Shown in pieces: positions 32,196 through 48,404 of a stretch of DNA of 64,000 nt (its first letter is position 1; the number at the start of each line of letters is the position of its first letter). Position numbers and translations under genes: made by a program. Source of the DNA: Bordetella genomosp. 5 (GTDB taxonomy: Bacteria; Pseudomonadota; Gammaproteobacteria; Burkholderiales; Burkholderiaceae_B); assembly GCF_002261475.1 (NCBI RefSeq), contig NZ_NEVN01000009.1, positions 1 through 64,000 of the forward strand, written 5' to 3'. The notes beneath the pieces were generated by a model that did no database searches, was not told the origin of the DNA, and was given only the letters and a program-made list of their open reading frames with translations.

Positions 32196-32211
32196 GATGG
32201 CGCGGGCGGGC

Positions 32212-32682
32212 TCAGCCGCCGCCCCCCGAGCCGGACTTGTTCTCGATGCGCGTGCCGAACCACTGCGGCAGCGGCTGCTCGAAGCTCTGGATATAGCGCT
32301 GCCAGGCCGCGCTGGCGACCGGCCCCTGCAGCGGCAGGCCCGGTCCGGCACGCCGGCCGTCGGCCTGCGCGGCCATCAGGGCACGGGTCACGGCGCCGGG
32401 CCGGTCCAGATCGTCCGCGCCGGCGCGAGCGACGGGAGCGGCGGGAGCGGCGGCCGGTTGCGACGGCACCTGGCGCACCGCCGCACTGGCGTCGGCCGGA
32501 GGCGGCGGGACCGTCGTCGCGGGACCGGCCGCGGGAACGGGCGTGGCCTGCGCCACCGGCGTGGCGGCGGAGGCCGCGGGGGGCGCAGGCGGCGTGAGCG
32601 GTGCACGCAGCTGCGCCGCGGCCGGGCCGCAGATCAGCACGCTCGCAAGCACGGCGGCCAGGGAAAGCGGAGATCGATGCAT
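32212..32682 (-). CDS. DUF3613 protein of the tad locus
   Basis: A 156-residue exported protein of the DUF3613 family, known from tad loci of betaproteobacteria. A signal peptide (to about AAA at residue 23) is followed by a Pro/Ala/Val-rich linker and a C-terminal conserved part with AWQRYIQSFEQPLPQWFGTRIE and a Gly-rich end. Function unknown; the conserved position implies a role in pilus assembly or anchoring. The ATG at 32682 has GAGG upstream; a GTG four codons earlier (32694) is an alternative. Confidence 0.8.
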   Translation of the reverse strand: MHRSPLSLAAVLASVLICGPAAAQLRAPLTPPAPPAASAATPVAQATPVPAAGPATTVPPPPADASAAVRQVPSQPAAAPAAPVARAGADDLDRPGAVTRALMAAQADGRRAGPGLPLQGPVASAAWQRYIQSFEQPLPQWFGTRIENKSGSGGGG

Positions 32683-32706
32683 GAGAGGCCTCACGATGCG
32701 TTCAGG

Positions 32707-33762
32707 TCAGGGGGTGGCCGCGCCCGCGGCGGGATTGCCCATCCGGTCGAGCAGCGGCCGTTGCAGGACCGGCATGGGCATGGCGGCGGAGACCGGGCTG
32801 GCGGCGGAAGAGGACGCATCGGCGACCGCGCGGCCGCTGGCATCCACCTGCCGCACGGACGGGCGGGCCGCGTCGGCCCGGGCCGCATCGGCCCCCGTCG
32901 CATCGCCACCCGGCCTGTCGCGGCCCGGCCTGTCGCGGCCCGGCCCGTCGCGGCCTGGCCTGTCGCGGCCCGGCACCATAGACACGGCCGCGATGGCCTG
33001 CGGCGGCGCGACGGCGCTCTGGCGTTGCGCCTGCCGGACTTCGTCGGCGAGCTGTACGACACGTTCGCGCGCCGGCTCGGACAATCCGGCCTGGTCCATC
33101 ACCTGATGCGCCGCGAGCGCATCGCCGCTCACCAGCAACAGCAGCGCGAGATTGCCGATGATGCGGGCATTGCCCGGGTCGAGCTCGGCGGCCTGACCCA
33201 GCGGCACGCGCGCGGCGGCGGGATCGCCCGCGCGCAACAACGCATAGCCGAGGTCACCCAGATATTGCGGATCGGTGGGGCGCATCCGCGCCGCCCGGCC
33301 CAGTTTGTCGGCCGCATCCTCGAAGTTGTTCTGTGCACCGGCGAGCAGGCCCAGCCCATGCCAGCCCCGCGCGGCCTGATCGCCATTCAGCAGCGCGCGG
33401 TACGCCTGTTCGGCGGCCGCGGGCTGGCCGGTCATGCGCAGCGCGTCGGCACGCAACGCCGCCACCTCGCCCCCTTCGCCATACGACTGCCGATAAGCAT
33501 CGATGTACGCAAGCGAGGCGAAGTAACGGCCATCGCGCTGCGACTCGCGGATCAGCGAGAGCGCGACCTCGGGCGGCGTCGCGGCATTGCGCCGCATCGA
33601 TTCGTCGGCCTTTTCCTGGGCCAGGGCCTGTTCGCGTTGCTGATCGCGCATGAGCTGCTGCGCGGTTTCGACGCGCGACGTCTGGCAGGCGGTCAGCGCG
33701 CCCAGCGCCGCCGCCGCCATCGCGATGCGCGCCCACGGCGCGAATCGGTCATGTTGTTTCAT
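32707..33762 (-). CDS. tadD: TadD-like TPR lipoprotein
   Basis: A 351-residue lipoprotein with the lipobox LTAC near residue 26 and TPR repeats from about residue 60 to 215 (for example PTDPQYLGDLGYALLRAGD). TadD is a pilotin-like protein needed for secretin assembly or stability. The C-terminal 110 residues are low complexity and include five Gly-Arg-Asp-Arg-Pro type pentapeptides encoded by a 15-bp tandem repeat. GGAGGAGG precedes the ATG at 33762, which overlaps the tadC stop by 4 bp. Confidence 0.88.
   Translation of the reverse strand: MKQHDRFAPWARIAMAAAALGALTACQTSRVETAQQLMRDQQREQALAQEKADESMRRNAATPPEVALSLIRESQRDGRYFASLAYIDAYRQSYGEGGEVAALRADALRMTGQPAAAEQAYRALLNGDQAARGWHGLGLLAGAQNNFEDAADKLGRAARMRPTDPQYLGDLGYALLRAGDPAAARVPLGQAAELDPGNARIIGNLALLLLVSGDALAAHQVMDQAGLSEPARERVVQLADEVRQAQRQSAVAPPQAIAAVSMVPGRDRPGRDGPGRDRPGRDRPGGDATGADAARADAARPSVRQVDASGRAVADASSSAASPVSAAMPMPVLQRPLLDRMGNPAAGAATP
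32911..32975. repeat. 15-bp tandem repeat inside tadD
   Basis: About four and a half copies of a unit like CGGCCCGGCCTGTCG. On the coding strand these give repeated GRDRP/GRDGP pentapeptides in the TadD tail. The length is a multiple of three, so copy-number change would lengthen or shorten the tail without a frameshift. Confidence 0.8.
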
Positions 33763-34763
33763 GGACTGCCTCCTCCAATCTGCGACAGGCCTCGGATGAC
33801 GGCGATGAAACCCGATCCGCCAGTGACGATGAGCAGCGCCGGCAACAGCGTCATCACCATCACGCCGGTCATCTTCACCGTCATCTTCGCCACCTTGGCC
33901 TTGAGGTCGAGCTTGCGCTTCTCGCGCACCCGCTCGCTGAAGCGCGCCAGCGGTTCCTGGACCGCGCCCCCGTGCTTGTCGATCTGGACCATCAGCCGGC
34001 AGATCGCCGTGAGGTCGTCGTTGTCGTAACCGTCGGCCAGGCGCGCGAGCGACTGCTCGCGGGTGCGGCCGCGTGTGTGGGCCTCGGCGGCCACGCGCAG
34101 CTCCTGGCCGATGACCGGCATCGCCACGCGAAAGTCGTGCACCAGCACGTGAATGCTCTGATCCAGCGAGAGGCCCACCCCCTGCAGCAGCCGCATCAGG
34201 TCGATCAACAGTGGCAGCTCCTGGCCGGCCTGGCGGCGGCGCTGCGACCAGCGGCGCATCAACCACCATTTGGGCCCCATCCACCCCAACGCGAAGCCGA
34301 AGAACATGAGGGCGGAGATGCCGGCCCAGCCCATGTCGGGCCAGCGCGCATCGGCGAGCATCCAGAGCGACATCGGCAGCGCCAGCACCAGAAACACGCG
34401 CGAGGCGATGAAGAGCCCGCGCGCGCGCGCCACGTCCGCGAAACCGCAGGCCTCGACCAGCCGCCGGTCTTCGTCGGCCAACAGGGAGTCGCCCAGGCGT
34501 CCCGCGCCCATGCGCAGGCCCGCATCGCTCGCCGCGTGCGTCACGGCCTCGATGTGCGCCCGGGGCGTGCGTGGCGCCTCCTCGACCGGCAGCGCGCGCC
34601 CTTCCCGCGCGGCCAGCGCGCGTTCGACGGTGCGCAGATTGCGCCCCTGCCGCCCCACGCGCGCCATCAGCGCGGCGCCCACGATCAGGCAGCCCACCAT
34701 CAGCGCAACGATGGCGCCGACGAGCAGCCAGCGGGCGACGGGATCGTTGAGCATCATCGCCAT
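33759..34763 (-). CDS. tadC: TadC, inner-membrane pilus platform protein
   Basis: A 334-residue type II secretion F-domain protein. The N-terminal helix (about 13-35), a central helix pair (about 115-165) and the conserved F domain (LPLLIDLMRLLQGVGLSLDQSI onward) end in a C-terminal helix with VMVMTLLPALLIVTGGSGF. With TadB it forms the inner-membrane platform that couples the ATPase to pilus growth. The gene starts 6 bp after tadB and overlaps tadD by 4 bp. Confidence 0.92.
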   Translation of the reverse strand: MAMMLNDPVARWLLVGAIVALMVGCLIVGAALMARVGRQGRNLRTVERALAAREGRALPVEEAPRTPRAHIEAVTHAASDAGLRMGAGRLGDSLLADEDRRLVEACGFADVARARGLFIASRVFLVLALPMSLWMLADARWPDMGWAGISALMFFGFALGWMGPKWWLMRRWSQRRRQAGQELPLLIDLMRLLQGVGLSLDQSIHVLVHDFRVAMPVIGQELRVAAEAHTRGRTREQSLARLADGYDNDDLTAICRLMVQIDKHGGAVQEPLARFSERVREKRKLDLKAKVAKMTVKMTGVMVMTLLPALLIVTGGSGFIAVIRGLSQIGGGSP

Positions 34764-34769
34764 GGCCGT

Positions 34770-35689
34770 CTATACCCCGCGCGCCATGCGATACAGCCAG
34801 AACGATCCGCAGATCTGCAGGCCGGCCGCGACGACCAGCATGCGAAAGCCCAGCGGATCGTTCCACATGTTCATGAACAGGTCGTTGTTGAACATGATGA
34901 TGAAGAGCGACACCCCCACCGGCAACAACGCCAGCACCCAGGCCGACAGGCGGATTTCGGCCGACAGCGCCGTGAGTTCGTCGCGGGCCGCTTCCAGATC
35001 CCGCATGAAGCCCGCCATGCGCTCGAGCACCTGATCGCTGCGCCCGCCGAAGCGCAGCGCCAGCGAGATCACCGCGGACACCAGCGAGAGCTCCTGCAGG
35101 CCATACTGGCGCGCCACCTGCGCGAGCGCCACGTCGAGTTCCTTGCCCGAGCGCGCCAGCGCGTCGGCCCGCTGCACCACCTCCAGCAGCGGCTGGTCGA
35201 CCGAGCGCGTGGCCGACTGAAACGCCGAGCTCACACTGTTGCCGATCACGATCAGGCGCACGGCCGCCTCGAGAAACTCGGGCAGCTGCGCCACCATGCG
35301 GCGCTTGCGCTTATCGGCCTTGTGCCACAGGCGGAAGTAGCCCAGCAGCAGCACCAGCGCGAAGCAGGCCAGCGCGGCAGCCGGACCGCCCGCCACGAGC
35401 GCGACCAGCGCGAGCAGCAGCGGCGGCGCCAGCAGCACGAAATAAATGCGTTGGCTCGAGGGCTCGCCCGCCAGCAGCAACAGGCGCGACCAGGCATTGC
35501 CGCCGCGCCGGATCGGCTGCATCAGCACGGCGCTCGCCGCAGTCGCGGTGGCGCCCTTGCCCTGATCCAGACGCGCATCGAGATAGGCCGACGTGGCGCT
35601 GCGTCGGGCACCCGCGCTGGCACGCAGCAGCACGATGAGTGCGCCGGCCAGCAACAACAGCGAGAGGGACCCGAGCAGCAACGCGTTCA

Positions 35690-35690
<1 letters not shown>
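34770..35690 (-). CDS. tadB: TadB, inner-membrane pilus platform protein
   Basis: A 306-residue T2SS F-domain protein paired with TadC. It has an N-terminal helix (3-25), two central helices (about 80-120), a cytoplasmic domain with LPEFLEAAVRLIVIGNSVSSAFQ, and C-terminal helices. The start codon overlaps the tadA stop by one base (TGATG), showing translational coupling. The protein belongs to the pilus platform in the inner membrane. Confidence 0.92.
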
Positions 35691-37057
<1,367 letters not shown>

Positions 37058-37073
37058 GATGCCTCCACCTTGG

Positions 37074-38405
37074 TCAAACCACGTTCACGCGTTTGTGCAC
37101 ACCGGGCAGCCACGTCGCGAGCCAGCCCTGGCGCGCGCTCGGCCCCATGTTGTCCGACATGACGCGATCGATCAGCGCCTGCACCGCGCGCACGTAGACG
37201 TCGCGCTCGGCCTGCTCGTGCAGCAGGCGGCCCTGGTTGGTACACACCATCAGCGGCAAGGTGCGATCGGGCAAAGTGCCTGCCAGCGTGATGCCGAAGC
37301 GCTCGGCGATCTGGCTGGCGGTCATGCCATAGCGCTCGTCGTAGCGATTGACCACGAGCTTGACGGAGGCGCGCTCGACGTGGTGCTGATCGAGCTCCTG
37401 CAGGACATTGGCGAGCGACACCAGCGCGCTCACGCTCTGGTCGGTGACCAGCCAGGTCTCCTGCGACGCGCGCACCAGCTTGGCCACGAACTCCGGATTG
37501 GAGAAGCCGCCGGCGTCGGTGATGAGCATGCCGTAATGCTGGCGCAGGCGTTCGAACAGCATGAGCGAGTCGGACGGCGACAGCGCGCGCATCTGCGCCA
37601 CGTCGCGCGGCAAGGCCAGCGCGCTCACGCCGGCGGCCGTGTGAGCCATGGCGGAGCTGAGCAAGGTGCCGTCGAGACGGCGCAGGTTGCGTACGGCTTC
37701 GGCAAAATCGAACTCGCTGCTGATGTTCAGATACAGCAGGCAGTCGCCCACCGGCCAGCCCAGGTCCAGCACGCCGACGCGATCGGACAGCGGCAACTGC
37801 GTGGCCATCAGGTCGCCACCGCGGGCCGCCTTGGCCGCGCCGTGCTGCCGCGTCGCGGCGGCCTGCGCGAGCATGTGCTGGCCGAGCCCGGCCGCATGCA
37901 CGGCGAGCGTGCTGGCGCCCACGCCGGGCCGCGCGCCCAGCACCAGCACGCTGCGATGGGTGGCGTCGGTGCCGCCGCCTTCGCCGCGCCGGTTCGAAAT
38001 CAGGCGCTGCACCACGCCGCGGACCTCTTCGGGCGAAACCGAGGGATCGACGAAGTCGCTCACACCGGCACGCAGCGCCGCGATGGCGCCATCGGGCTGG
38101 GCCAGGTAGCCCACGGCGACGCGCGGCACGGAAGGCGCCACGCGCGCCAGGATGCGCGCCAGATCGGCCGCCATCAGCAGCTTGCCCGGCTCGTTGGCAT
38201 CGGCCGTGAAATCCAGAAACACCACCTGCGGATTGATATCCGCAATGCGGCGCGCAAGCGTATCGAGCGGCGGCAGCTCTTGCGTCAACAGGCCGAGATC
38301 ACCGATGGCCTGACCCAACTGCTGCGCCACGTTGTTGTTGCTGGTGCAGAAAAGAAAGCAGGTGCTCTTGTCGAGAGCAACCCATTCTCGGGCGTGTGTC
38401 TTCAT
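37074..38405 (-). CDS. tadZ: TadZ/CpaE pilus localisation protein
   Basis: A 443-residue CpaE-family protein: an atypical receiver domain (1-130, with VVFLDFTADAN) followed by a MinD/ParA-like ATPase domain. The deviant Walker A is seen as LGARPGVGASTLAVHAA, where the usual signature Lys is replaced. It localises the Tad machine, typically to a cell pole. The open frame continues far upstream through the N-terminal half of cpaC, only because of the frameshift there; the natural ATG is 38405, 5 bp after the cpaC stop. Confidence 0.9.
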   Translation of the reverse strand: MKTHAREWVALDKSTCFLFCTSNNNVAQQLGQAIGDLGLLTQELPPLDTLARRIADINPQVVFLDFTADANEPGKLLMAADLARILARVAPSVPRVAVGYLAQPDGAIAALRAGVSDFVDPSVSPEEVRGVVQRLISNRRGEGGGTDATHRSVLVLGARPGVGASTLAVHAAGLGQHMLAQAAATRQHGAAKAARGGDLMATQLPLSDRVGVLDLGWPVGDCLLYLNISSEFDFAEAVRNLRRLDGTLLSSAMAHTAAGVSALALPRDVAQMRALSPSDSLMLFERLRQHYGMLITDAGGFSNPEFVAKLVRASQETWLVTDQSVSALVSLANVLQELDQHHVERASVKLVVNRYDERYGMTASQIAERFGITLAGTLPDRTLPLMVCTNQGRLLHEQAERDVYVRAVQALIDRVMSDNMGPSARQGWLATWLPGVHKRVNVV

Positions 38406-38410
38406 ATTCG

Positions 38411-39782
38411 TCACCGTGAAAAACCCGGCATCTGCTGACCTCCCATGGGGCCGAGCAAGTAATACCCCCAAGCCGTGGACGCGCGATCGCTCACTTCCTG
38501 GCGTTCGCCCGGCATCGGCAGGGTCACTCCCCGCGCAATGGGCCGGACCAGCCGCGGGGTGACCACAATCACCAACTCGTTGTCCTCTTGCGAGTACTGC
38601 ACGTTGCGGAAAAATGCGCCGATGATGGGCAGATCGCCCAGCAGCGGAATCTTGTTCACGTTGGCCTTCGTCTGGCGCGACACCAGGCCGCTGATCAGAT
38701 AGCTCTCGCCGTCGCCCAGCTCCACCGTGGTGTCCGCCTTGCGGGTGCGCAGGGCCGGAATCGTGGTGAGCGAGCCGTCGGTGTTCGACATCATGATGCC
38801 GTTCGTGTAATCCAGTTCGCTGGCCTCGGGCGCGACCTTGAGTGCGATACGCTCGCGCGAGATGACCGTGGGCGATACCGTGAGCCCGATGCCGAAGGGC
38901 TTGAATTCGATGGTCTGCGTGCCCAGGCCGCCGGCCACCGGAATCGGAATCTCGCCGCCCGCCAGAAAGCTCGCGCTCTGACCGGACAGGGCCAGCAGCG
39001 TCGGCTCGGCCAGGATGCGCGCCATGCCGTTGCTCTGCAGCAGGCGCAGCGTGGCGTTGAAGTCGCTGCTGTTGTAGCTGATGCCGCCCAGGAATCCGCT
39101 GAGTTGCGGCAGCAACGACACGCCGGCCGATACCCGGCCGCCACCCGCATTGAACGCGACGCCGATGTCCTTCATGACCGACTTCGACACTTCCACGACT
39201 TTCACTTCGACCTGCACCACCCCGCTCGTGGCGATCTGCGACACGTCGACGAGGGTCTCGGGGATCACCGGCCGCCTGCACCGCCGCGCGATGCGCATCG
39301 GCGGAAGGCGCCGTACCGGTGATCACGCCGCGGCCGTCGGCCGTATCCACGCTCACGCCGGGCTGCACGCCACGCCGCACGAGCGCGGCCTGTGCGTCGG
39401 AAATCACCCGGACCAGCCATACCTGCGGGTCCCGTGCCCCGCGGGTCCAGACGCGCAGCTCGGTGGTGCCGGCCTTGCGGCCGTAGACCAGCACTTCGCC
39501 AGCACCTGCCGTGCCCGTCAGTACTTTGACATCGGCCACGCTGGGATCGCCCACCGCGATGCGCGTGGGCGCGCCCGCCAGGCCCAGGGGCTGCTGGCCG
39601 TTCACGCTCACCATCAGCTCGCTGATGCGGGGCGCGGCCGGCTGTTGCGCCCCCGCAGGCGGCGCGGCGGGCGACGGTCCGCGCGGCGGTGTCTGCCCCC
39701 AGGCGTGACCCGACATGGCCACCATTCCCGCCGACAGCCAGATGCCTACCCCGATCTTCCTGCTCATCCCCGATACCTTCAT
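38411..39782 (-). pseudogene. cpaC: CpaC/RcpA outer-membrane secretin, frameshifted
   Basis: The secretin of the Tad pilus, split by one extra base. From 39782 the first 171 codons encode a signal peptide (through GHAWG) and the pilus/secretion N-domain up to AHRAAVQAA. From there the next frame continues with VIPETLVDVSQIATSGVVQVEVKVVEV and the secretin domain (SQRE... to ELVIVVTPRLVRP) to the stop at 38411. The extra G lies in the CCGG at 39268-39271. Removing it yields one 456-residue protein of normal length, AAVIPE at the junction. It may be a sequencing error or a real inactivating mutation; if real, pilus export should fail. Confidence 0.85.
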
Positions 39783-39849
39783 GCGTTCCGAATCCTGTTT
39801 CTGCTCACGCGCACCGAGAAGCGGCGCGCGCATGATTCCGTGATCACAC

Positions 39850-40809
39850 TCAATAAGTGACTGTGGAGATGTCTCCGCCTCGAATGATTTCCACGCTGCG
39901 GCCGCCCCCGGCCGGACGCGGCGAACGCGGCGCGGCCTGCTGCGGCGGCGGCTCGGGCGCCGGTCCCGCCAGTTGCGGCAGCGCATCGCCCGCGAAGGCC
40001 GCATTGATGCCGTCGCGTGCGCTGGCCTGCTGCACCGGCGTCAAGCCCGCGCGCGCGTTCAGCACGGGCGCGCGGCGCGGGAACAGCGAAGGATCCGGCA
40101 TGTCGGTGTCGCCCGGCGAGCGCAGCACCAATTGCAGCTTGCCGGCGCGCGAGGCGAGCAACAGCTCGTTGACCTGCTCGACCGGCACCGCAAGAATGGC
40201 GTTGCGCGCGACGGCCGCGTTCGGCGTGTTGGTATCGACCGCGGCGCCCGGTCCCGACACGGCATCCGCGCCGTAGGCCAGCACCCGCACGCGCGACTGC
40301 AGCAGACGGGTCTGCGTGCCGGGCACCTCGGCGCTGCGCTCCATCAGCAGAAACACGTCGATCAGGTCGCCCGGCTGGATCCGATTCTGCGCGCCGGACA
40401 GTTCGTCGACCGCGATCGTGACCGCACGCTCGCCCGGCTCCAGATAGGTGGCCAGGCCGCGCATCACATCGGCGCTCATCACCGGCTCGCCGGCCATCAG
40501 GGCCTTGCGCAGCACCTTGCCCTCGATCTGCTTGGGATCCGTCTCCACGCCGCCCGGCTGCACCGGCCATTGGGCGACTTTCAGCTTGTCGGCCGCGATC
40601 GGCACGCCCGGCTCGATACGGCTGGCCGCCACCAGGACCGGGAAGGTCTGCACCTCGGGCTCGGCCGGTGCGGCGTTCTGCACCTGCACGGGCCAGACCG
40701 GCGCGGGCGGCGGCGGCACCGGGCGCGTGGCGAGTTGAATGGCAAAGAAGCCCAACACCAGGGCAACCAGGATGAACAGACCCGCGACGATTTTGGCGGT
40801 GAGACTCAT
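39850..40809 (-). CDS. cpaB: CpaB/RcpC pilus assembly protein
   Basis: A 319-residue periplasmic protein with an N-terminal membrane helix (residues 5-27) and an SAF domain (ASRIEPGVPIAADKLKVAQWP), then the RcpC region (RAVTIAVDELSGAQNRIQPGDLIDVFL). CpaB helps gate or assemble the secretin. The C-terminal 60 residues are Pro/Ala-rich. The ATG at 40809 overlaps the stop of the upstream tadE-like gene by 4 bp; the Shine-Dalgarno is weak, so coupling probably drives translation. Confidence 0.9.
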   Translation of the reverse strand: MSLTAKIVAGLFILVALVLGFFAIQLATRPVPPPPAPVWPVQVQNAAPAEPEVQTFPVLVAASRIEPGVPIAADKLKVAQWPVQPGGVETDPKQIEGKVLRKALMAGEPVMSADVMRGLATYLEPGERAVTIAVDELSGAQNRIQPGDLIDVFLLMERSAEVPGTQTRLLQSRVRVLAYGADAVSGPGAAVDTNTPNAAVARNAILAVPVEQVNELLLASRAGKLQLVLRSPGDTDMPDPSLFPRRAPVLNARAGLTPVQQASARDGINAAFAGDALPQLAGPAPEPPPQQAAPRSPRPAGGGRSVEIIRGGDISTVTY

Positions 40810-41282
40810 GGTGAGGATCCGGAAGGTATCTGCACGCTGGCCAGTGCGCTCAGCGACGTCGGCAGCCAGCTGTTGCCGCCGGGCAGTGCCCCGGCCAGCG
40901 TGCGCATCATGCCGAGCAGCGGCCAGTCGGCCGCGTTGTATGACAGCGAGACGCGTGCGCAACGCTGCACCACCCCGTTGACATCGGCCCAGGGGCAGTT
41001 CGCGACGGTCACCGCGCAGCTCACCGCGAGCCAGCTGGCTTCCTGGCGCGCCGCCGTGCAGGCGGCGTTCGAATTCATGGAGCCGGCAAGCCCGGTCTGC
41101 AGCGCCACCTGCGCGCCCTCGCCCACCGCCTTGGTGAGCTTCTGTTGCGCCCAGAAGAGCGAACCGAGCCCGATGATGCCGCACAGGATGAAGAGCAGCA
41201 GCGTGATGACGAGCGCGAACTCGATGGCCGCGACGCCGCGTTGGCGGCGCATCGGTAGCAGGCGGGGAGACCGGGGCGGCAT
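40806..41282 (-). CDS. TadE-like minor pilin
   Basis: A 158-residue TadE-family protein. The signature QRGVAAIEFALVITLLLFILCGIIGLG lies at residues 14-40: a short basic leader, a Gly-Val cleavage region with Glu+5-like position and a pilin-type helix. Four cysteines in the C-terminal part (AACTAAR, VSCAV, ANCPW, QRCAR) may form disulfides. GGGAG precedes the ATG at 41282, 2 bp after the stop of the preceding tadE-like gene. It should be a minor pseudopilin of the Flp pilus. Confidence 0.88.
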   Translation of the reverse strand: MPPRSPRLLPMRRQRGVAAIEFALVITLLLFILCGIIGLGSLFWAQQKLTKAVGEGAQVALQTGLAGSMNSNAACTAARQEASWLAVSCAVTVANCPWADVNGVVQRCARVSLSYNAADWPLLGMMRTLAGALPGGNSWLPTSLSALASVQIPSGSSP

Positions 41283-41284
41283 GT

Positions 41285-41752
41285 TCAGCTCCCGGCCTGC
41301 GACAGCGCGCCGCCCAGGCGCACCGAGGCGCGCGCGCTCAATTCGTTGGGCATGACGAGTGCCATGCCGGGCAAGGTAGGCAGGAGCGGCGCGTTGCCGT
41401 AGGGGTAGCGCACCACGACTTCGATCTGGTCCGGCGCCAGCGCGATGCCGCTGCAATTACCCGTGCCGCTCAAGCGGCCGGAAACACCACATACGGCCAC
41501 GCGCGTGGCCGTGCCACCCATCGACGAGACCCAGGCCGCCTGCACGGCGGCTGCCGCCTGCGCGCTCTCGGCGCGCGGCGCCCAGGCGCCGATGGCCTGC
41601 CAGCGCTGCGCGGCGCGAGCGCCCTCATCGGCGGCAAAATTGATGGATTGCTGGGCGGCGAAGATGAGGCCCCAGGTCAGAAGACCGTAAGCAACCAGGA
41701 AGAACACCATGAACACAAGGGCGAACTCGACGGCATAAGCGCCCCGCTCCAG
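41285..41752 (-). CDS. TadE/TadF-like minor pilin, non-canonical start
   Basis: A 155-residue TadE/F-type minor pilin. The signature ERGAYAVEFALVFMVFFLVAYG is at the N-terminus and QQSINFAADEGARAAQRW follows. The difficulty is the start: in this frame no ATG, GTG or TTG lies close to the pilin leader. The nearest plausible start is a CTG at 41752 (CTG GAG CGG), which would give L/M-E-R-G-A-Y. The first usable GTG upstream lies inside tadV and would add a meaningless peptide. The gene overlaps the 3' end of tadV by about 75 bp in another frame. A small frame error here or a true CTG start are the two explanations. Confidence 0.65.
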   Translation of the reverse strand: MERGAYAVEFALVFMVFFLVAYGLLTWGLIFAAQQSINFAADEGARAAQRWQAIGAWAPRAESAQAAAAVQAAWVSSMGGTATRVAVCGVSGRLSGTGNCSGIALAPDQIEVVVRYPYGNAPLLPTLPGMALVMPNELSARASVRLGGALSQAGS

Positions 41753-42177
41753 GCGACCAGACCGGCCGCCGCGCCCATGGGCAGGATGCGCAGGCCCTTC
41801 ATGCCGCCCGCGATGCCCGTGCTGTAGTACCAGAGCGCGCCCAGACCGCACAGCGCGGTGCCGAAGAGCACGACCGCCGCCCATGGCCAAAAACCGACCC
41901 ACAAGCCGAGCGCAGCCAGATACTTCACGTCGCCCGCGCCCATCCAGCGCATATGCCAGGCGTAGACGAAGGCGAAACTCGCGCCGAACGCAAGCAACGC
42001 GTCGCCCCAGCTCTGCGCGCCATAGTCCGGCCAGGGCTGCCCGCTGAATGTCGCGAACAGCAGCCATCCGACCTGCACCAAAGCCGCGCCCGCCGTGAGC
42101 CAGTTGGGCACGCGGCGCCAGCGCATGTCGTAATACACGACCAGGGTGTTGAAGGCCAGGAACGACAGCCACCACAT
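41677..42177 (-). CDS. tadV: TadV/CpaA prepilin peptidase
   Basis: A 166-residue aspartyl prepilin peptidase that removes the leader of Flp and TadE-type pilins. The two catalytic aspartates fit YYDMRWRRVPN near the N-terminus and GAGDVKYLAALG in the middle (GxGD motif). AGGAG precedes the ATG at 42177; a GTG eight codons earlier is less likely. The C-terminal 20 residues (PSSSPLCSWCSSWLLTVF) do not look like the family and are read from a frame that overlaps the next gene, so the true end may lie earlier. Confidence 0.85.
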   Translation of the reverse strand: MWWLSFLAFNTLVVYYDMRWRRVPNWLTAGAALVQVGWLLFATFSGQPWPDYGAQSWGDALLAFGASFAFVYAWHMRWMGAGDVKYLAALGLWVGFWPWAAVVLFGTALCGLGALWYYSTGIAGGMKGLRILPMGAAAGLVAWSGALMPSSSPLCSWCSSWLLTVF

Positions 42178-42227
42178 GTTCTCCTTCAACAATCGGGGCA
42201 CTCCAGCTTATTGGGTGGGTCGCGAAA

Positions 42228-42669: not shown

Positions 42670-43476
42670 TCAACGCACCGGCGCTCCCGGGGCCCGGCCG
42701 TCGTTGAGCAACGCGTCCATGCGTTGCGACAGCCGCGCCTGGTAGCGCTTGTAGCTGCGATGCAATTGCCAGCGCATCGCGATGAGAACCAGAATGGCGC
42801 CGCCGAATGCCACGTAGGGCAACGAGACACCGCCGACGTGCAGGCCATCACCCGTGCCGCCGGTCGTACAAACCACCGTGGCCGCGGCCACGCCGGTGTA
42901 ATGCATGCCGCAAACCGCGACGGCCATCAGCACGGCGGCGACCATGCGCTGCCACTCGCGCTGCACGTTGAAGGCCAGCCATACCGCCGCCGTCGCCGCG
43001 CCGACCGCGATCAAAACCGAGGCGATCACGAGCGGCGTGTCCCAGCGGAAAAACGCCGGCATGCGCATCGCGCTCACGCCGATGTAATGCATCGCCGCCA
43101 CTGCCAGCCCGGCCAGCAGGCCCGCCACCGCGCAGCGGAACAGCGAGAAGGGTCGCCCTCCCACATACCAGAACGCCGCGCCCGAAAACACGATGGCGAC
43201 CAGCGCGCTGATCAGCGTGGGCACCAGCGCATACTCCACATCGAAAGGCAGGTTCTGTGCCTGCATGCCGATGAAGTGCATGCCCCAGATACCGATCCCG
43301 CCCATCGCCAGCGCGCCGATCACCGCGTATCCGCGCCAGGATTCCCCGTCGCGCACGCTGTCGCGAATATGCGCGGCAGCGCTCAGGGCCACGTAGGAGC
43401 CCAGCAGCGCGATCACAAACGACAAGAGGAACAGGCCGCTGTGAAACGCTAGGGGAACGATATCTCCGGGATTCAT
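42670..43476 (-). CDS. MHYT domain membrane sensor
   Basis: A 268-residue integral membrane protein made only of an MHYT domain: seven helices with the three motifs GMHFIG, AMHYIG and GMHYTG, thought to bind copper and sense oxygen, CO or NO. Unlike most MHYT proteins it has no GGDEF, EAL or kinase output; after the last helix only 35 basic residues follow. It may work through a partner. It is upstream of flp on the same strand (160 bp), so it could be transcribed toward the tad locus. Confidence 0.92.
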   Translation of the reverse strand: MNPGDIVPLAFHSGLFLLSFVIALLGSYVALSAAAHIRDSVRDGESWRGYAVIGALAMGGIGIWGMHFIGMQAQNLPFDVEYALVPTLISALVAIVFSGAAFWYVGGRPFSLFRCAVAGLLAGLAVAAMHYIGVSAMRMPAFFRWDTPLVIASVLIAVGAATAAVWLAFNVQREWQRMVAAVLMAVAVCGMHYTGVAAATVVCTTGGTGDGLHVGGVSLPYVAFGGAILVLIAMRWQLHRSYKRYQARLSQRMDALLNDGRAPGAPVR

Positions 43477-43941: not shown

Positions 43942-45660
43942 ATGAAGCCTTATCAGCCTGCACATAGAAGGGTCTTGAGATACTCGGTAGTCGCGGCGCT
44001 GACCGGTTGCGCGATTAATAGCTGGGCCGACGCGCCACTGCGTGGCAATCCGGTGGACTCATTACCGCAGGTGGAACGCCCGGCGCAGGCCCCGCCTCCC
44101 ACCGTCGCGCCTCCACCCACGCCCGAGCAGCAGGCAATACAGGCGCGTCTGGCGCAACGCATCGTGCCGCGCAACTTCGACGTGGCCGGCGTGCATACCA
44201 TCGAGTTCAGCGAGATATCGGCCTTTCTGACGCCGCTGGTCGGGAAAGAGATAACGGTGGGCGAGCTGGTACAGCAGACCGAGAAAATCACCGAGCTCTA
44301 CCGCGAACGCGGTTATCCCTTGTCGTTCGCACTGGTGCAGAACCAGAACTTCGCCAACGGCCTGGTGGTCGTCACGGTGGTCGAGGGCTACATTCAGAAC
44401 GTGCGGATCGAGGGAGATACCGGCAATGCGCAGTCCCGGCTCGAGTATCTGGCCGAGCCTCTGCTCGAAGAGAAGCCCCTGACCCGCGCCACGCTCGAAC
44501 GCGTGCTCAATCTCATGCGCATCGTGCCCGGGGTGACGATCAATCCCGCGATGGATCTGCCGCGGCGCGCGGACGGCGCGACGGAGCTCGTCATCAATGC
44601 CAGCCTCAAGCGGGTGAACGTGAACGGCAACGTGGCCGACCTGGGCACCGGCATGCAGCCTCTCGTGAACGTGGGGACCAACAGCCTCACGCCGCTGGGC
44701 GAGCAGGTGAAGCTTACCGGCGCACTGCCGATCGGGCACAACGCCGTCACCTATTTCGCCGGCGAAGTCCGCGTGCCGATCGCCAACGACGGGCTTGCGC
44801 TGAAGATCGATGGCTACCATTACCAGGCCGAGCCGCAGGACGACGCGATCGAGATGCTGGGCTTCAACCGCAAGGTGACCAACGATCGGATCGGCGTCGC
44901 CCTGGCCTACCCCATCATCCTGAACAACCGCCGTTCCCTGACCGCGACGCTCGGAGCCTACGCGGCGAACTCCAAGGATCGCTACGACCAGAAGAACAGC
45001 GACAACTGGCTGCAGCAGGACACGCGCGTGCGCGCCGGCATGGCCGAATTGCGCTACATCGACGTGTTGCCCGAACGCACGACCGACGTGACGCTCGGCG
45101 TGTCGCACGGCTTCTCGGGGCTGGGCGCGAAGAAGTCCATCGAAACCAACTACGGTTACTCGGCGGACCCGGAGATCGATCTGCGCTTCACGCGCTATAA
45201 CCTCAACGCCCGTCAGTCGTTCGAGTTGCCCGCCAAGTTCGGCCTGGTATTGAGCGCGTCGGGCCAATACAGCAGCAGTATCCTGCCCAGCTCCGAACAG
45301 GTGTCGTTCGGCAGCTGGCGCTATGGTATGGGTTATCCGCAGGGCGAGATCAGCGGCGACAAGGGCGTGGGCCTGTCGGCCGAGATCAACCGCCGCTTCG
45401 GCCTGGGCTGGCAGTATCTGAGCGCGGTCCAGCCCTATTTTCTGGTGGACTACGCGCGCAGCTGGTATAACCGCGCCGATTTGAAGCCGCTCGACAACAA
45501 GCACCTCTCCTCGCTCGCGCTCGGGCTGCGCTTCACCGACGATCGCTATTACCTGTTCGATTTCAATGTGGCCAAGCCCGTGGGCTCCGCGACGCTGAAC
45601 GACAACGATCGTGACCTGCGCTTCAATGCGAATTATTCGCTGTTCTACGACGCGTTCTGA
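43942..45660 (+). CDS. TpsB-type outer membrane transporter (ShlB/FhaC family)
   Basis: A 572-residue two-partner secretion transporter. An atypical signal peptide (to WADA, about residue 31) is followed by a Pro-rich stretch containing PPPTPEQQA, a POTRA-type domain (about 75-150, IEFSEISAFLTPLVGKEITV), a second POTRA-like region, and a 16-strand barrel (about 205-572) ending in Phe. The family motif around VRAGMAELRYIDVLP fits strand 6 and loop L6. It should secrete a TPS exoprotein, but no filamentous hemagglutinin-like gene with a TPS domain is adjacent. The next gene is a glycine-rich lipoprotein, which may be its cargo. Confidence 0.9.
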   Translation: MKPYQPAHRRVLRYSVVAALTGCAINSWADAPLRGNPVDSLPQVERPAQAPPPTVAPPPTPEQQAIQARLAQRIVPRNFDVAGVHTIEFSEISAFLTPLVGKEITVGELVQQTEKITELYRERGYPLSFALVQNQNFANGLVVVTVVEGYIQNVRIEGDTGNAQSRLEYLAEPLLEEKPLTRATLERVLNLMRIVPGVTINPAMDLPRRADGATELVINASLKRVNVNGNVADLGTGMQPLVNVGTNSLTPLGEQVKLTGALPIGHNAVTYFAGEVRVPIANDGLALKIDGYHYQAEPQDDAIEMLGFNRKVTNDRIGVALAYPIILNNRRSLTATLGAYAANSKDRYDQKNSDNWLQQDTRVRAGMAELRYIDVLPERTTDVTLGVSHGFSGLGAKKSIETNYGYSADPEIDLRFTRYNLNARQSFELPAKFGLVLSASGQYSSSILPSSEQVSFGSWRYGMGYPQGEISGDKGVGLSAEINRRFGLGWQYLSAVQPYFLVDYARSWYNRADLKPLDNKHLSSLALGLRFTDDRYYLFDFNVAKPVGSATLNDNDRDLRFNANYSLFYDAF

Positions 45661-45670
45661 GCGTTACAAA

Positions 45671-45696
45671 CGTCCGGCGTTACGTTACGCCGGACG
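45671..45696. promoter_or_regulatory. Perfect inverted repeat after the TpsB gene
   Basis: Ten-bp arms CGTCCGGCGT and ACGCCGGACG around a six-base loop lie 10 bp after the transporter stop. No T tract follows, so it is not a classical terminator; GTAAC/GTTAC pentamers recur around it (for example at 45697 and 45706). It may be an mRNA-stabilising hairpin, a Rho-type end or a protein site. Confidence 0.5.
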
Positions 45697-45883
45697 TAAC
45701 ACCCCCGTAACACGTAACGACATTCGCGGAAAAACAACATTCGCGGCAGCGGGGAATTCGTCCGTTCGCGACGTGTTTTCTTCTCTCATTACATTCCAAA
45801 AAACACGCAAGCCATTGATTTAAAAGAAATTTTAAAAACCCAAAAAAGCGGATCGTCAATCTTTCGGCGGTATTCGAAAAAAC

Positions 45884-45899
45884 TGGCATGAATTTCGCA
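45884..45899 (+). promoter_or_regulatory. Near-consensus sigma-54 promoter
   Basis: TGGCATGAATTTCGCA matches the -24/-12 consensus TGGCACGN4TTGCA at all but two positions, with the obligatory GG and GC ten bases apart (45885-45886 and 45897-45898) and a C before the TGG. Transcription should begin near 45910, about 45 bp before the glycine-rich lipoprotein start. Its activator is not known; a sigma-54 activator gene lies at 28524-29945 in this window. Confidence 0.7.
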
Positions 45900-45956
45900 T
45901 AGGGATAGGTATCGGGCGGTTTAAAGGCCTGACTTACCAAACCCTAGGAGTGCATC

Positions 45957-47807
45957 ATGCAAGCAAAAAATGTTCGCAACCGCCCGACCCGCTTCGCAGT
46001 AACGCTGATGTCCGTTGCGCTGATGGCAGCGCTCACCGCTTGCGGCGGCGGTGGCGGTAGCAAGCGCACGGCAGGCGTCGGTGGTGATAACGGCAGTATT
46101 CCCGGCGGCGGCGGCGGTGGCGGCCAAATGCCCGGCGGCGGCGGCGGCGGCAATAACCCCGGCGGTGGCGATAATCCTGGCGGTGGCGGCGGCGGCGGCG
46201 GTGGTGGTGGCGGCGGCGGCGGCGGTGATCCCACCACGCCCACCAATCCTCCCGTGACGACCGGTCTGCTGGAAACCACGCTCGGTAATACCGGCGGCGC
46301 CGTGGACAGCTTGCTTCCGCTCGGCACCGGTACGGCATTGGGCGGCGTGGGCAAGGCTCTCGACCCCACCCTCGCTCCGGTGGTCGATACGGTTGAAAAC
46401 CTGACGCAAACGGTCGGCGCCCAGACGGGCCTCGGCACGCCGGTCGCCGGCACGCTGACCCAGGTGGGCGGCGCGGTCAGCAACCTGGGTGGCACCGTGT
46501 CTGGCGCCGGCCTGCCTGGCGGCCTCGGCACCGGCGTCGGCGGTCTGATCGACGGCCTGGGCAACACGGTTGCGGCCGCAGGTGGCCTGCTTGTCGCCGA
46601 TCCGAAGAACCCCGATCCGCTCAAGAACGTCGCCAATGAAGCCACCAAGGCCGTGGCCGCACTGACCGGCGCCCTCGGTGGCCAGGGCGGTCTGCTGCAG
46701 CCCGTGAACAGCCTCGTGGACAGCCTGGCCGGCGGCGTGCTCGCCCAGCCGGGTCAGCCGATCCTGCAACCCGCCCTCGGCAACACCGGCCAGGCCGCCG
46801 ACAACGTGCTCGGCCTCGGTCTGCAAGGCCCGCTGGCCGGCGTCGGCCAGGCGCTGGATCCGGCGGTCGCACCGGTCGCCGGCGCGGTCACGAACCTGAC
46901 GACGCGCGTCGGTGACCAGACCGGTCTGGGTGCGCCCGTGGCCGGCCTGCTGAGCAGTGTGGGCGGAACGCTGGCAGGCGCCGGCTCCAACGTGCCGGGC
47001 GGACTGCCGGTCGGCGGACTGGACGGCGTGCTGGGTGGTCTGGGCAGTGCCGTGGGCGCCGCCGGCGGGCTGCTGCACGCGGATGCGGCCAATCCGAATC
47101 CGCTGGGAAAGGTGCTGAAGGACGCGACCGGCGCGGTGGCGTCCCTGACCGGCGGGCTCGGACTCGGCGGCAACGGCGGCCTGCTCAGCCCGATCACCGG
47201 CAATCTGGGGGTGGGCGGTCTGACGGGCGGCGCGGCCAACGGCGGCTTGCTGGCCCCTGTGACCGGCCTGCTGGGTGGTGCGACGGGCAATACCGGCGGC
47301 AGCGCGAATGCCGGCTTGCTGACCGGCCTGCTGGGCGGCACGAGCGGCGGTTCGGCACCGGCGAACGGCGGCCTGGTCGGCGGTCTGCTGGGCGGCGTGA
47401 CCGGCGCGGTCTCGGGTGGCGCAACGGGTGGTACGACCGGGGGTGCTCCGGCCGGCAATAACGGCGGTCTGCTCGGCGGCCTGCTCGGCGGCGTGACCGG
47501 TGCCGTGTCGGGCGGTGCCACGGGTGGCGCCGGCGGTGCGGCCGCAGGCAACAACGGCGGCTTGCTGGGCGGTCTGCTCGGCGGCGTGACCGGCGCGGTC
47601 GCAGGAACCAAGGCGCCCGCCGCCACGGCTCCCGCACCGGCAGGCAACACCGCGACGGCGCCGTCCGGCGCCAGCAACGGCGGCCTTCTCGGCGGCCTGC
47701 TGGGTGGCGTGACGACGACGGCTTCCGGCTCGTCCGGCACCAGCGGCACGCCCAACGGTGGCCTCCTGGGCGGTCTGCTCGGTGGCGTCACCGGCGCCCT
47801 GAAGTAA
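45957..47807 (+). CDS. Glycine-rich repeat lipoprotein, putative surface protein
   Basis: A 616-residue lipoprotein. The signal peptide ends in the lipobox LTAC (Cys29). Residues 30-92 are a glycine linker with a run of 16 Gly. Two related segments follow, about 102-250 and 264-405, each with LGNTGxA, GVGxALDP, GxQTGLGxPVAG, and AAGGLL motifs: a duplicated unit of about 145 residues. The last 150 residues contain five copies of a GGLLGGLLGGVTG repeat separated by Gly/Ala/Thr spacers. No cysteine besides the lipobox is evident. The composition fits a fibrous or elastic surface protein; family unknown to me. It is preceded by a sigma-54 promoter and follows a TpsB transporter. Confidence 0.8.
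   Translation: MQAKNVRNRPTRFAVTLMSVALMAALTACGGGGGSKRTAGVGGDNGSIPGGGGGGGQMPGGGGGGNNPGGGDNPGGGGGGGGGGGGGGGGDPTTPTNPPVTTGLLETTLGNTGGAVDSLLPLGTGTALGGVGKALDPTLAPVVDTVENLTQTVGAQTGLGTPVAGTLTQVGGAVSNLGGTVSGAGLPGGLGTGVGGLIDGLGNTVAAAGGLLVADPKNPDPLKNVANEATKAVAALTGALGGQGGLLQPVNSLVDSLAGGVLAQPGQPILQPALGNTGQAADNVLGLGLQGPLAGVGQALDPAVAPVAGAVTNLTTRVGDQTGLGAPVAGLLSSVGGTLAGAGSNVPGGLPVGGLDGVLGGLGSAVGAAGGLLHADAANPNPLGKVLKDATGAVASLTGGLGLGGNGGLLSPITGNLGVGGLTGGAANGGLLAPVTGLLGGATGNTGGSANAGLLTGLLGGTSGGSAPANGGLVGGLLGGVTGAVSGGATGGTTGGAPAGNNGGLLGGLLGGVTGAVSGGATGGAGGAAAGNNGGLLGGLLGGVTGAVAGTKAPAATAPAPAGNTATAPSGASNGGLLGGLLGGVTTTASGSSGTSGTPNGGLLGGLLGGVTGALK
47361..47803 (+). repeat. Five GGLLGGLLGGVTG-coding repeats
   Basis: DNA repeats of about 40 bp encode NGGLxGGLLGGVTG at five places (near 47363, 47458, 47552, 47674 and 47754), with spacers of 17-28 residues. 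They form the C-terminus of the glycine-rich lipoprotein. Synonymous codon differences among copies show that the protein repeat, rather than the DNA, is conserved. Confidence 0.8.
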
Positions 47808-47846
47808 TCCACCCGCCCACGACCCCGCGCCCCCTGGAGCCGCGCC

Positions 47847-48404
47847 ATGTACGAGTCCGAACGAATTGTGTCGCATGATCATCGACACGGTGACACCAGC
47901 GATCACTACGGCCAGTCGGCCAACCCCGACAGCGCCGCCGAGATTGCCCTGATCCTGAGCCGCCAGTTGTCGGTGTACATGGCCGCGAGCCAGGCGGCCC
48001 TGGCCGAGAAGCTGGGCATCTCGCTCACCGAGCTCAAGGCCCTGGACCTGGTCCAGGAGTTCGATGCCCTGCCGACCGGCCAGCTCGGCCAGTTGCTGGG
48101 CATCAGCTGGGGCGGCGCCACCGCCCTGATCAATCGGCTGGAGGCGGCGGGTTATGTGCAACGCGGCCGCCATCCGCTGGATCGCCGGGTGATCGTGATC
48201 CGGCCGGTGGCCGAGCGCCTGCGGGAGCTGGACCGGGCCCGCCGGGCGGCGACGGAAGAAGTGCAGTTTCTGAGCCGCCAGTACGACGCCCAGCAGTTGC
48301 ACATCGTGCAGGCGTTCCTGGCGCAGTATGCCCGCACGCTGCGCCACGACACGCTGATGTGGTTGCAAAGCCGCCACGGCGGCATGCAGGACGAATCGCT
48401 TTAA
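47847..48404 (+). CDS. MarR family regulator downstream of the lipoprotein
   Basis: A 185-residue MarR-type winged-helix regulator. A His/Ser/Asp-rich N-terminal tail (1-30) precedes the dimerisation helix, the HTH with ALPTGQLGQLLGISWGGATALINRLEAAGYV, and the wing RHPLDRRVIVIRP. The C-terminal helices complete the dimer. GGAG precedes the ATG at 47847. It starts 39 bp after the glycine-rich lipoprotein gene, with no terminator between, and ends at a strong terminator, so the two genes are one unit. It may control its own operon or the TpsB gene. Confidence 0.9.
   Translation: MYESERIVSHDHRHGDTSDHYGQSANPDSAAEIALILSRQLSVYMAASQAALAEKLGISLTELKALDLVQEFDALPTGQLGQLLGISWGGATALINRLEAAGYVQRGRHPLDRRVIVIRPVAERLRELDRARRAATEEVQFLSRQYDAQQLHIVQAFLAQYARTLRHDTLMWLQSRHGGMQDESL

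Follow-up and report, generated by a model that had tools for sequence, protein, structure and literature searches.

The window analysed here is a stretch of 64,000 nucleotides from Bordetella genomosp. 5 (assembly GCF_002261475.1, contig NZ_NEVN01000009.1, positions 1 to 64,000), and the system in question is a three-gene locus within it, which encodes a TpsB-type outer-membrane transporter, a glycine-rich lipoprotein and a MarR-family regulator (Table 1). TpsBs normally release very large adhesins or toxins. As a rule, the POTRA domains of a TpsB recognise the TPS (two-partner secretion) domain of an exoprotein (PMC5422565). An earlier sequence-only reading of this DNA had described a complete ShlB/FhaC-type transporter followed by the lipoprotein and the MarR gene, with which coordinates and Pfam matches agree, and had suggested that the lipoprotein stands where a TPS-domain exoprotein would be expected. 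We find that this pairing is real, with the lipoprotein in place of the TPS-domain exoprotein, and that the genomic evidence supports it well.

Table 1. Positions of the genes and sequence features discussed, in the coordinates of the window.
Feature	Position	Strand	Basis
TpsB-type outer-membrane transporter, Collagen_mid-linked clade	43942..45660	+	572-residue open reading frame; POTRA_2 + ShlB
Collagen_mid (PF15984) glycine-rich lipoprotein, presumed cargo	45957..47807	+	616-residue open reading frame
Lipobox Cys29 codon, +2 residue Gly	46041..46043	+	sequence pattern
Gly16 linker, residues 75-90	46179..46226	+	
Lipoprotein unit 1, aligns with second half of Collagen_mid	46266..46706	+	
Lipoprotein unit 2, 56% identity to unit 1, also Collagen_mid	46761..47195	+	
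Five GGL[LV]GGLLGGVT repeats; protein ends in GALK	47367..47804	+	
MarR-family regulator	47847..48404	+	185-residue open reading frame; Pfam over cut-off
MHYT-domain membrane protein, divergent neighbour of TpsB	42670..43476	-	Pfam
Tad/Flp pilus cluster	29961..42201	-	Pfam
TadV prepilin peptidase	41677-42201	-	Pfam
Rest of Tad cluster: two TadE-like, RcpC/CpaB, RcpA/CpaC (N + secretin domains, two frames)	29961..42201	-	Pfam
Rest of Tad cluster: TadA-type ATPase (T2SSE), two T2SSF (TadB/TadC), TPR (TadD-like), Tad/Tad_C (TadG-like)	29961..42201	-	Pfam

The signal of the lipoprotein ends in LTAC-GGGGG, where LTAC occupies residues 26-29 and Cys29 is predicted from the pattern only, a lipobox and signal peptide as expected of a lipoprotein like the Burkholderia proteins discussed below. 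The Gly16 linker, the duplicated unit and the five repeats that had been read from the sequence are all there: the two units, of about 147 residues each (residues ~104-250 and ~269-413), are identical at 56% of 149 columns, and the repeats start at residues 471, 503, 534, 575 and 601, the first being GGLVGGLLGGVTG and the fourth ending in VTT, a small correction to the consensus. Once the signal peptide is removed, which the match requires (the full-length protein gave no Pfam entry), the mature protein scores 60.9 bits with Collagen_mid, against a cut-off of 31.1. The match falls into two stretches, of which the best covers profile positions 89-196, and each unit passes the cut-off by itself. 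The protein is thus a divergent Collagen_mid protein with a duplication of the domain's second half. The whole domain is matched by the proteins of loci L060, from Cupriavidus metallidurans CH34, L062 and L075 (202-251 bits) and L080 (174 bits); other relatives score 66 (L086), 67 (L087) or 45-90 bits (L002, L022, L041, L085). The family name is misleading for the protein of the window, in which the Pfam scan found no PF01391 collagen Gly-X-Y repeats; such repeats are present in the relatives of L080 and L085.

A search of the genome for the TPS domain (PF05860, E <= 0.001) gave no match anywhere, and at the same threshold ShlB matched once. This absence is meaningful because the same search was positive in 36 of 61 related genomes. 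A classical TpsA elsewhere in the genome, which the sequence-only reading had named, along with a strictly periplasmic lipoprotein, as a finding that would refute its proposal, is rejected on this PF05860 search, and its statement that no TPS-domain exoprotein is present agrees with the result for the whole genome. Pfam scans of the lipoprotein, both full-length and mature, found no TPS-domain match either, so that the TPS-like N-terminal domain for which a search had been proposed was not found. A search of the genome for Fil_haemagg was empty as well, this one being without a positive control. In five genomes (G000, G015, G024, G025 and G027) a TpsB of the kind found in the window is the sole TpsB found and is accompanied by no TPS-domain match; G000 has a second POTRA_2 match, under the cut-off, in an 819-residue frame that we take to be probably BamA. 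We also observed that the same-genus genomes G010 and G011 have 14 and 16 TPS-domain matches, the next highest number among the 61 genomes being 9.

In a tree, 29 TpsBs linked to such lipoproteins fall on one side of a branch with support 100/100, as against 18 other TpsBs, which were drawn from weaker matches in related genomes, with thin sampling between the groups. We refer to these 29 and their like as the clade. Its distribution was followed in 61 related genomes, 398 Pseudomonadota genomes and 399 genomes of the order Burkholderiales. Among the Pseudomonadota, a profile of the clade splits 14 of the 398 genomes (at least 619 bits) from the others listed (at most 257 bits; limit E 1e-60), and Collagen_mid exceeds its cut-off in 13 of the 14 and in none of the 384 others (Fisher p = 2e-23, phylogeny ignored); five further genomes have matches below the cut-off. 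By coordinates, the Collagen_mid gene lies no more than 1.5 kb from the clade TpsB in 13 of 13 genomes. Few genomes of the order have the clade (14 of 399, E 1e-40). Nineteen of the 61 relatives have a clade TpsB (E < 1e-80), and the lipoprotein unit (profile A5) was found in 18 of them as against none of the other 42; in the nineteenth, G060, a more divergent repeat lipoprotein adjoins the TpsB, and in G042 profile A5 picked an unlinked gene, the linked one being recognised by PF15984.

The gene-neighbour statistics that had been proposed as a check point the same way. A Gly-rich repeat lipoprotein adjoins the TpsB at 45 of 48 clade loci versus 0 of 18 control loci, a recurrence that is far beyond chance; the three loci in which none was detected are L084, L089 and L090, the last two having broken lipoprotein frames (in G002, the genome of L089, both genes are broken, the TpsB being truncated N-terminally as well). 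The TpsB precedes the lipoprotein in the Bordetella/Achromobacter family and follows it in Cupriavidus, Caballeronia, family f31 and loci L138-L143 of families f55/f58, the latter lying outside the order though in the same class as the window. Since gene order is inverted between families, the link is not explained by one inherited order. A single TpsB may also adjoin several cargo genes in tandem, three in L085 and two in L086. An orphan or pseudogene TpsB can be dismissed, as the pairing recurs within and outside the order. A plasmid origin was rejected too: among the best 30 of 82 plasmid matches, the top five are Cupriavidus/Caballeronia replicons of 1.3-2.8 Mb with 37-40% identity, and the remaining 25 records reach at most 27% identity.

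In the TpsB of the window, POTRA_2 (65 bits) and ShlB (59.1 bits) alone exceed the Pfam cut-off, which is the domain content of a type Vb TpsB, and no Slam barrel family was found in that scan; an NCBIfam scan gave nothing over cut-off for the TpsB or the lipoprotein. Its AlphaFold2 model (mean predicted local distance difference test score 82.8, predicted template modelling score 0.74) is nearest to the PDB structures of CdiB (6wim, 6wil) and FhaC (4ql0, 4qky). The matches also include 3njt, the R450A mutant of FhaC, and we take R450 to be the L6 arginine position that we scored, the motif VRGY/F with its arginine being presumably a hallmark of TpsBs. At this position the TpsB of the window has Met463. 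Of the other TpsBs, 17 of 18 have the arginine, whereas 20 of the 29 clade members lack it; the nine that keep it (six of f55/f58 and three of the Burkholderiales, f25-type) show that its loss does not define the clade as a whole. Another feature is the motif GNPVDSLP at residues 35-42, the mature N-terminus. A similar motif after the signal peptide was counted in 26 of the 29 clade TpsBs and in 0 of 18 other TpsBs, with a broad pattern composed after the data were seen.

As for the history of the clade, one may look at the company its relatives keep. By coordinates, a TPS-domain match lies in ten of the 17 control loci that come from genomes (L091, L092, L094-L096, L098-L101 and L106); the eighteenth control locus, L063, is a plasmid record and lay outside that search. 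Ten stretches with the nearest outgroup TpsBs were also compared. In five of them a large neighbour could be tested at its N-terminus, and all five neighbours are PF05860 exoproteins, which makes a change of TpsB partner the simplest history; in the other five the large neighbour is cut by the stretch (L152-L154, L158) or there is no such neighbour (L160).

The locus of the window adjoins a Tad/Flp pilus cluster. One gene of the cluster is presumably TadZ, for which there was no Pfam match. Tad genes were found at 43 of 48 clade loci as compared with 0 of 18 control loci, the exceptions being L025, which has no upstream flank, and L081-L084. At the paired loci L081-L083 and L138-L141 no Tad genes were detected in the fetched stretch with Burkholderiales queries, which diverged genes could escape; the same queries did find Tad genes in L142 and L143. 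The MHYT gene is present in 27 of the 28 loci named Bordetella, Achromobacter or Schauerella, L025 again having no upstream flank. In L086 each of the two lipoprotein genes is followed by a MarR gene and these two MarRs are 54% identical, so that a lipoprotein gene and its MarR gene appear to be duplicated together, as one module. In Burkholderia-type loci (L075, L078, L079) we observed a small exported protein after the TpsB, a DUF2147 protein by Pfam in L075 and judged by similar sequence in the other two.

Neither the Tad locus nor the Collagen_mid identity was part of the sequence-only reading, and the latter means that the lipoprotein does not form a wholly new class, as had been proposed. 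The family is known from Beta- and Gammaproteobacteria, and two members in Burkholderia cenocepacia, BCAL1523 and BCAL1524 ("Bcc-CLP"), have already been proposed as adhesins, possibly in an operon with BCAL1522 and BCAL1520 next to the flp operon (PMC10224339). Another account divides a single flp cluster into two putative operons, BCAL1524-1520 and BCAL1525-1537, with several of its genes expressed at a lower level in a cepR mutant (PMC2753556), and BCAL1520, 1523 and 1524 are induced along with flp genes upon contact with host-cell vesicles (PMC7970998). PMC10224339 classes BCAL1522 among outer-membrane proteins, as heme utilization-related, and contains neither the word two-partner nor the word hemolysin; among the papers searched, BCAL1522 is named in one. 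We infer that BCAL1522 is a counterpart of the clade TpsB, because L075 has the gene order of the BCAL locus and its genes are of similar length, that of the TpsB being exactly equal at 1686 bp. Deletion of BCAL1524 leads to less autoaggregation, and the matching spot is gone from outer-membrane vesicles (PMC10303873). A lipoprotein confined to the periplasm, which had been named as evidence against the proposal, sits poorly with the reported vesicle location of BCAL1524, the nearest published relative, and the need for it in full autoaggregation, although content of vesicles does not prove exposure on the outer leaflet. None of the papers listed in searches of the open-licence PMC literature names a TpsB as an exporter of Collagen_mid lipoproteins.

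The reading that we favour, and consider fairly probable, is a variant type Vb system whose TpsB places Collagen_mid lipoproteins on the cell surface, where they act with the Tad pilus in adhesion; as a mechanism, the partnership of TpsB and lipoprotein is likely. The lipoprotein would carry a type II signal peptide, receive its lipid and travel to the outer membrane. There, by analogy with type Vb, the POTRA domains of the TpsB would take up its extended chain, rich in Gly and Leu, for passage through the barrel to the surface. The lipid would serve as an anchor and the poly-Gly stretch as a flexible tether, and the displayed Collagen_mid domain and Leu/Gly repeats could act together with the Tad pilus in adhesion between cells or to surfaces and in aggregation. 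The local MarR might control this adhesive system.

Some features of the lipoproteins may be read with such a route in mind. Among those found by script, the residue after the lipidated Cys is Gly in 40, Ser in 8, Ala in 7 and Asp in 2, and in the lipoproteins compared the Cys is followed by a stretch of low complexity with abundant Gly, Ser, Pro or Asn. Collagen_mid lipoproteins were also observed to end mostly in a Leu/Gly-rich tail (e.g. GGLLGGLLGGL) with one or two basic residues, at 47762-47804 in the window. Lys, Arg or His occurs within the last two residues of 55 of 57 complete lipoproteins (54 of 56 without the out-of-frame L090), a count whose script filter left out L138-L141, L145 and L149; the C-termini of the L138 and L141 proteins are not basic. 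These three residues make up 2% of the mature lipoprotein of the window. The tail may be a signal for secretion or retention.

One may also consider explanations other than export by the TpsB. The transporter and the lipoproteins could both be accessories of the Tad pilus, such as surface docking or pilus-binding factors. The presence of Tad genes at most clade loci would fit, as would the induction of neighbouring lipoprotein genes together with flp genes in B. cenocepacia (PMC7970998), but the pair also occurs where no Tad genes were detected in the fetched stretch (L081-L083, L138-L141). The pair is therefore tighter than the link to Tad, and we regard this explanation as unlikely. It could also be imagined that the TpsB holds the lipoprotein more than it transports it. 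RcsF threads BamA and OmpA as a lasting display complex, and in a similar manner the lipoprotein, lipidated at the inner leaflet, could thread its Gly tether permanently through the TpsB barrel. The BamA-RcsF structure (6t1w) is indeed among the structural matches of the TpsB model, the low-complexity stretch after the Cys would suit such a tether, and the model has no helix of at least four residues between residues 23 and 60, a region of low model confidence that presumably corresponds to the place of the plug helix of FhaC. However, a single TpsB gene is accompanied by as many as three neighbouring cargo genes and by others that are unlinked, which better fits a recycling transporter, and a permanent complex of this kind appears improbable to us.

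Finally, the lipoprotein could remain periplasmic and the TpsB, which keeps the general fold, could export some other, unlinked soluble protein. This is very unlikely in view of the TPS-domain search, which found no such protein in the genome despite its positive results in relatives, and of the near-perfect co-occurrence and adjacency with Collagen_mid lipoproteins, outside the order too.

Several observations weigh against export of the lipoprotein by the TpsB. The link between the two rests on genomic association, and the counts are not phylogenetically independent, 28 loci bearing the names Bordetella, Achromobacter or Schauerella. Of the Collagen_mid genes above the cut-off, eight (L144-L151) have no clade TpsB in the fetched stretch, although they sit in four genomes (G042, G191, G286, G316) that each also have a TpsB-linked pair; the Collagen_mid tree, in which inner support is weak, places unlinked genes inside the Burkholderiales groups and does not separate linked from unlinked cargo. 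In G008 (L090) a full-length TpsB stands beside a frame-broken lipoprotein, and the partners in L023 and L083 had no PF15984 match in the Pfam scan. With methionine in place of the L6 arginine, the barrel may work otherwise than that of FhaC. For BCAL1523, PSORT predicts the cytoplasmic membrane (PMC10224339), and the vesicle localisation of BCAL1524 is, as said, no proof of the outer leaflet. The pilus is also concerned, as the RcpA/CpaC secretin gene of the window (38411-40004, minus strand) is split over two frames, and aligns in one frame in all five relatives compared (L002, L009, L022, L023 and L027); the strain may thus be hampered in building its Tad pilus, or the split may be an assembly error.

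That the lipoproteins are adhesin candidates, and that BCAL1524 is in vesicles and contributes to autoaggregation, is known already. The cargo family being known, the novelty is two-partner secretion with a Collagen_mid lipoprotein as the partner. For TpsBs, the passages of PMC4104836 on their classification recognise the FhaC and Hmw1B groups alone, without further subfamilies. We think, on balance and with little to spare, that the clade is a third kind beside these groups, which has given up TPS exoproteins and become a dedicated surface exporter of Collagen_mid lipoproteins, i.e. a lipid-anchored form of type Vb secretion in Burkholderiales, usually within Tad loci there, and in families outside, with one transporter able to serve several cargos, perhaps via their shared Leu/Gly-rich, basic-ended tail. 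To our knowledge, few systems have been described that bring lipoproteins through the outer membrane to the cell surface. If the reading of surface display by the TpsB is true, it would provide a new route for lipoproteins across the outer membrane, explain how the Burkholderia adhesin candidates arrive at the surface and extend type Vb secretion to lipidated cargo that has no TPS domain and is tied to Tad pili, which suggests a little-noticed way to place adhesive lipoproteins on the cell surface.

Compared with known systems, the locus resembles type Vb secretion (FhaC, CdiB) in the POTRA_2 and ShlB domains and the modelled barrel of its transporter, but differs in having a presumed lipoprotein cargo and no TPS partner found, and in a TpsB that belongs to a distinct clade, has lost the L6 arginine to methionine and carries GNPVDSLP at its mature N-terminus. 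With the Bcc-CLP proteins it shares the PF15984 family, the lipoprotein nature of the protein and the proximity to Flp/Tad genes, whereas the protein of the window matches the second half of the domain alone, twice, has N-terminal Gly runs and lies in the order TpsB-lipoprotein-MarR. The RcsF-BamA display complex likewise joins a lipoprotein with a barrel of the Omp85 superfamily, but here the barrel is a TpsB, the lipoprotein is another one and a complex between them is putative. Slam of Neisseria offers a functional analogy, being an outer-membrane translocon that places lipoproteins on the surface, although the transporter of the window, with its POTRA_2 and ShlB domains, is of a different family.

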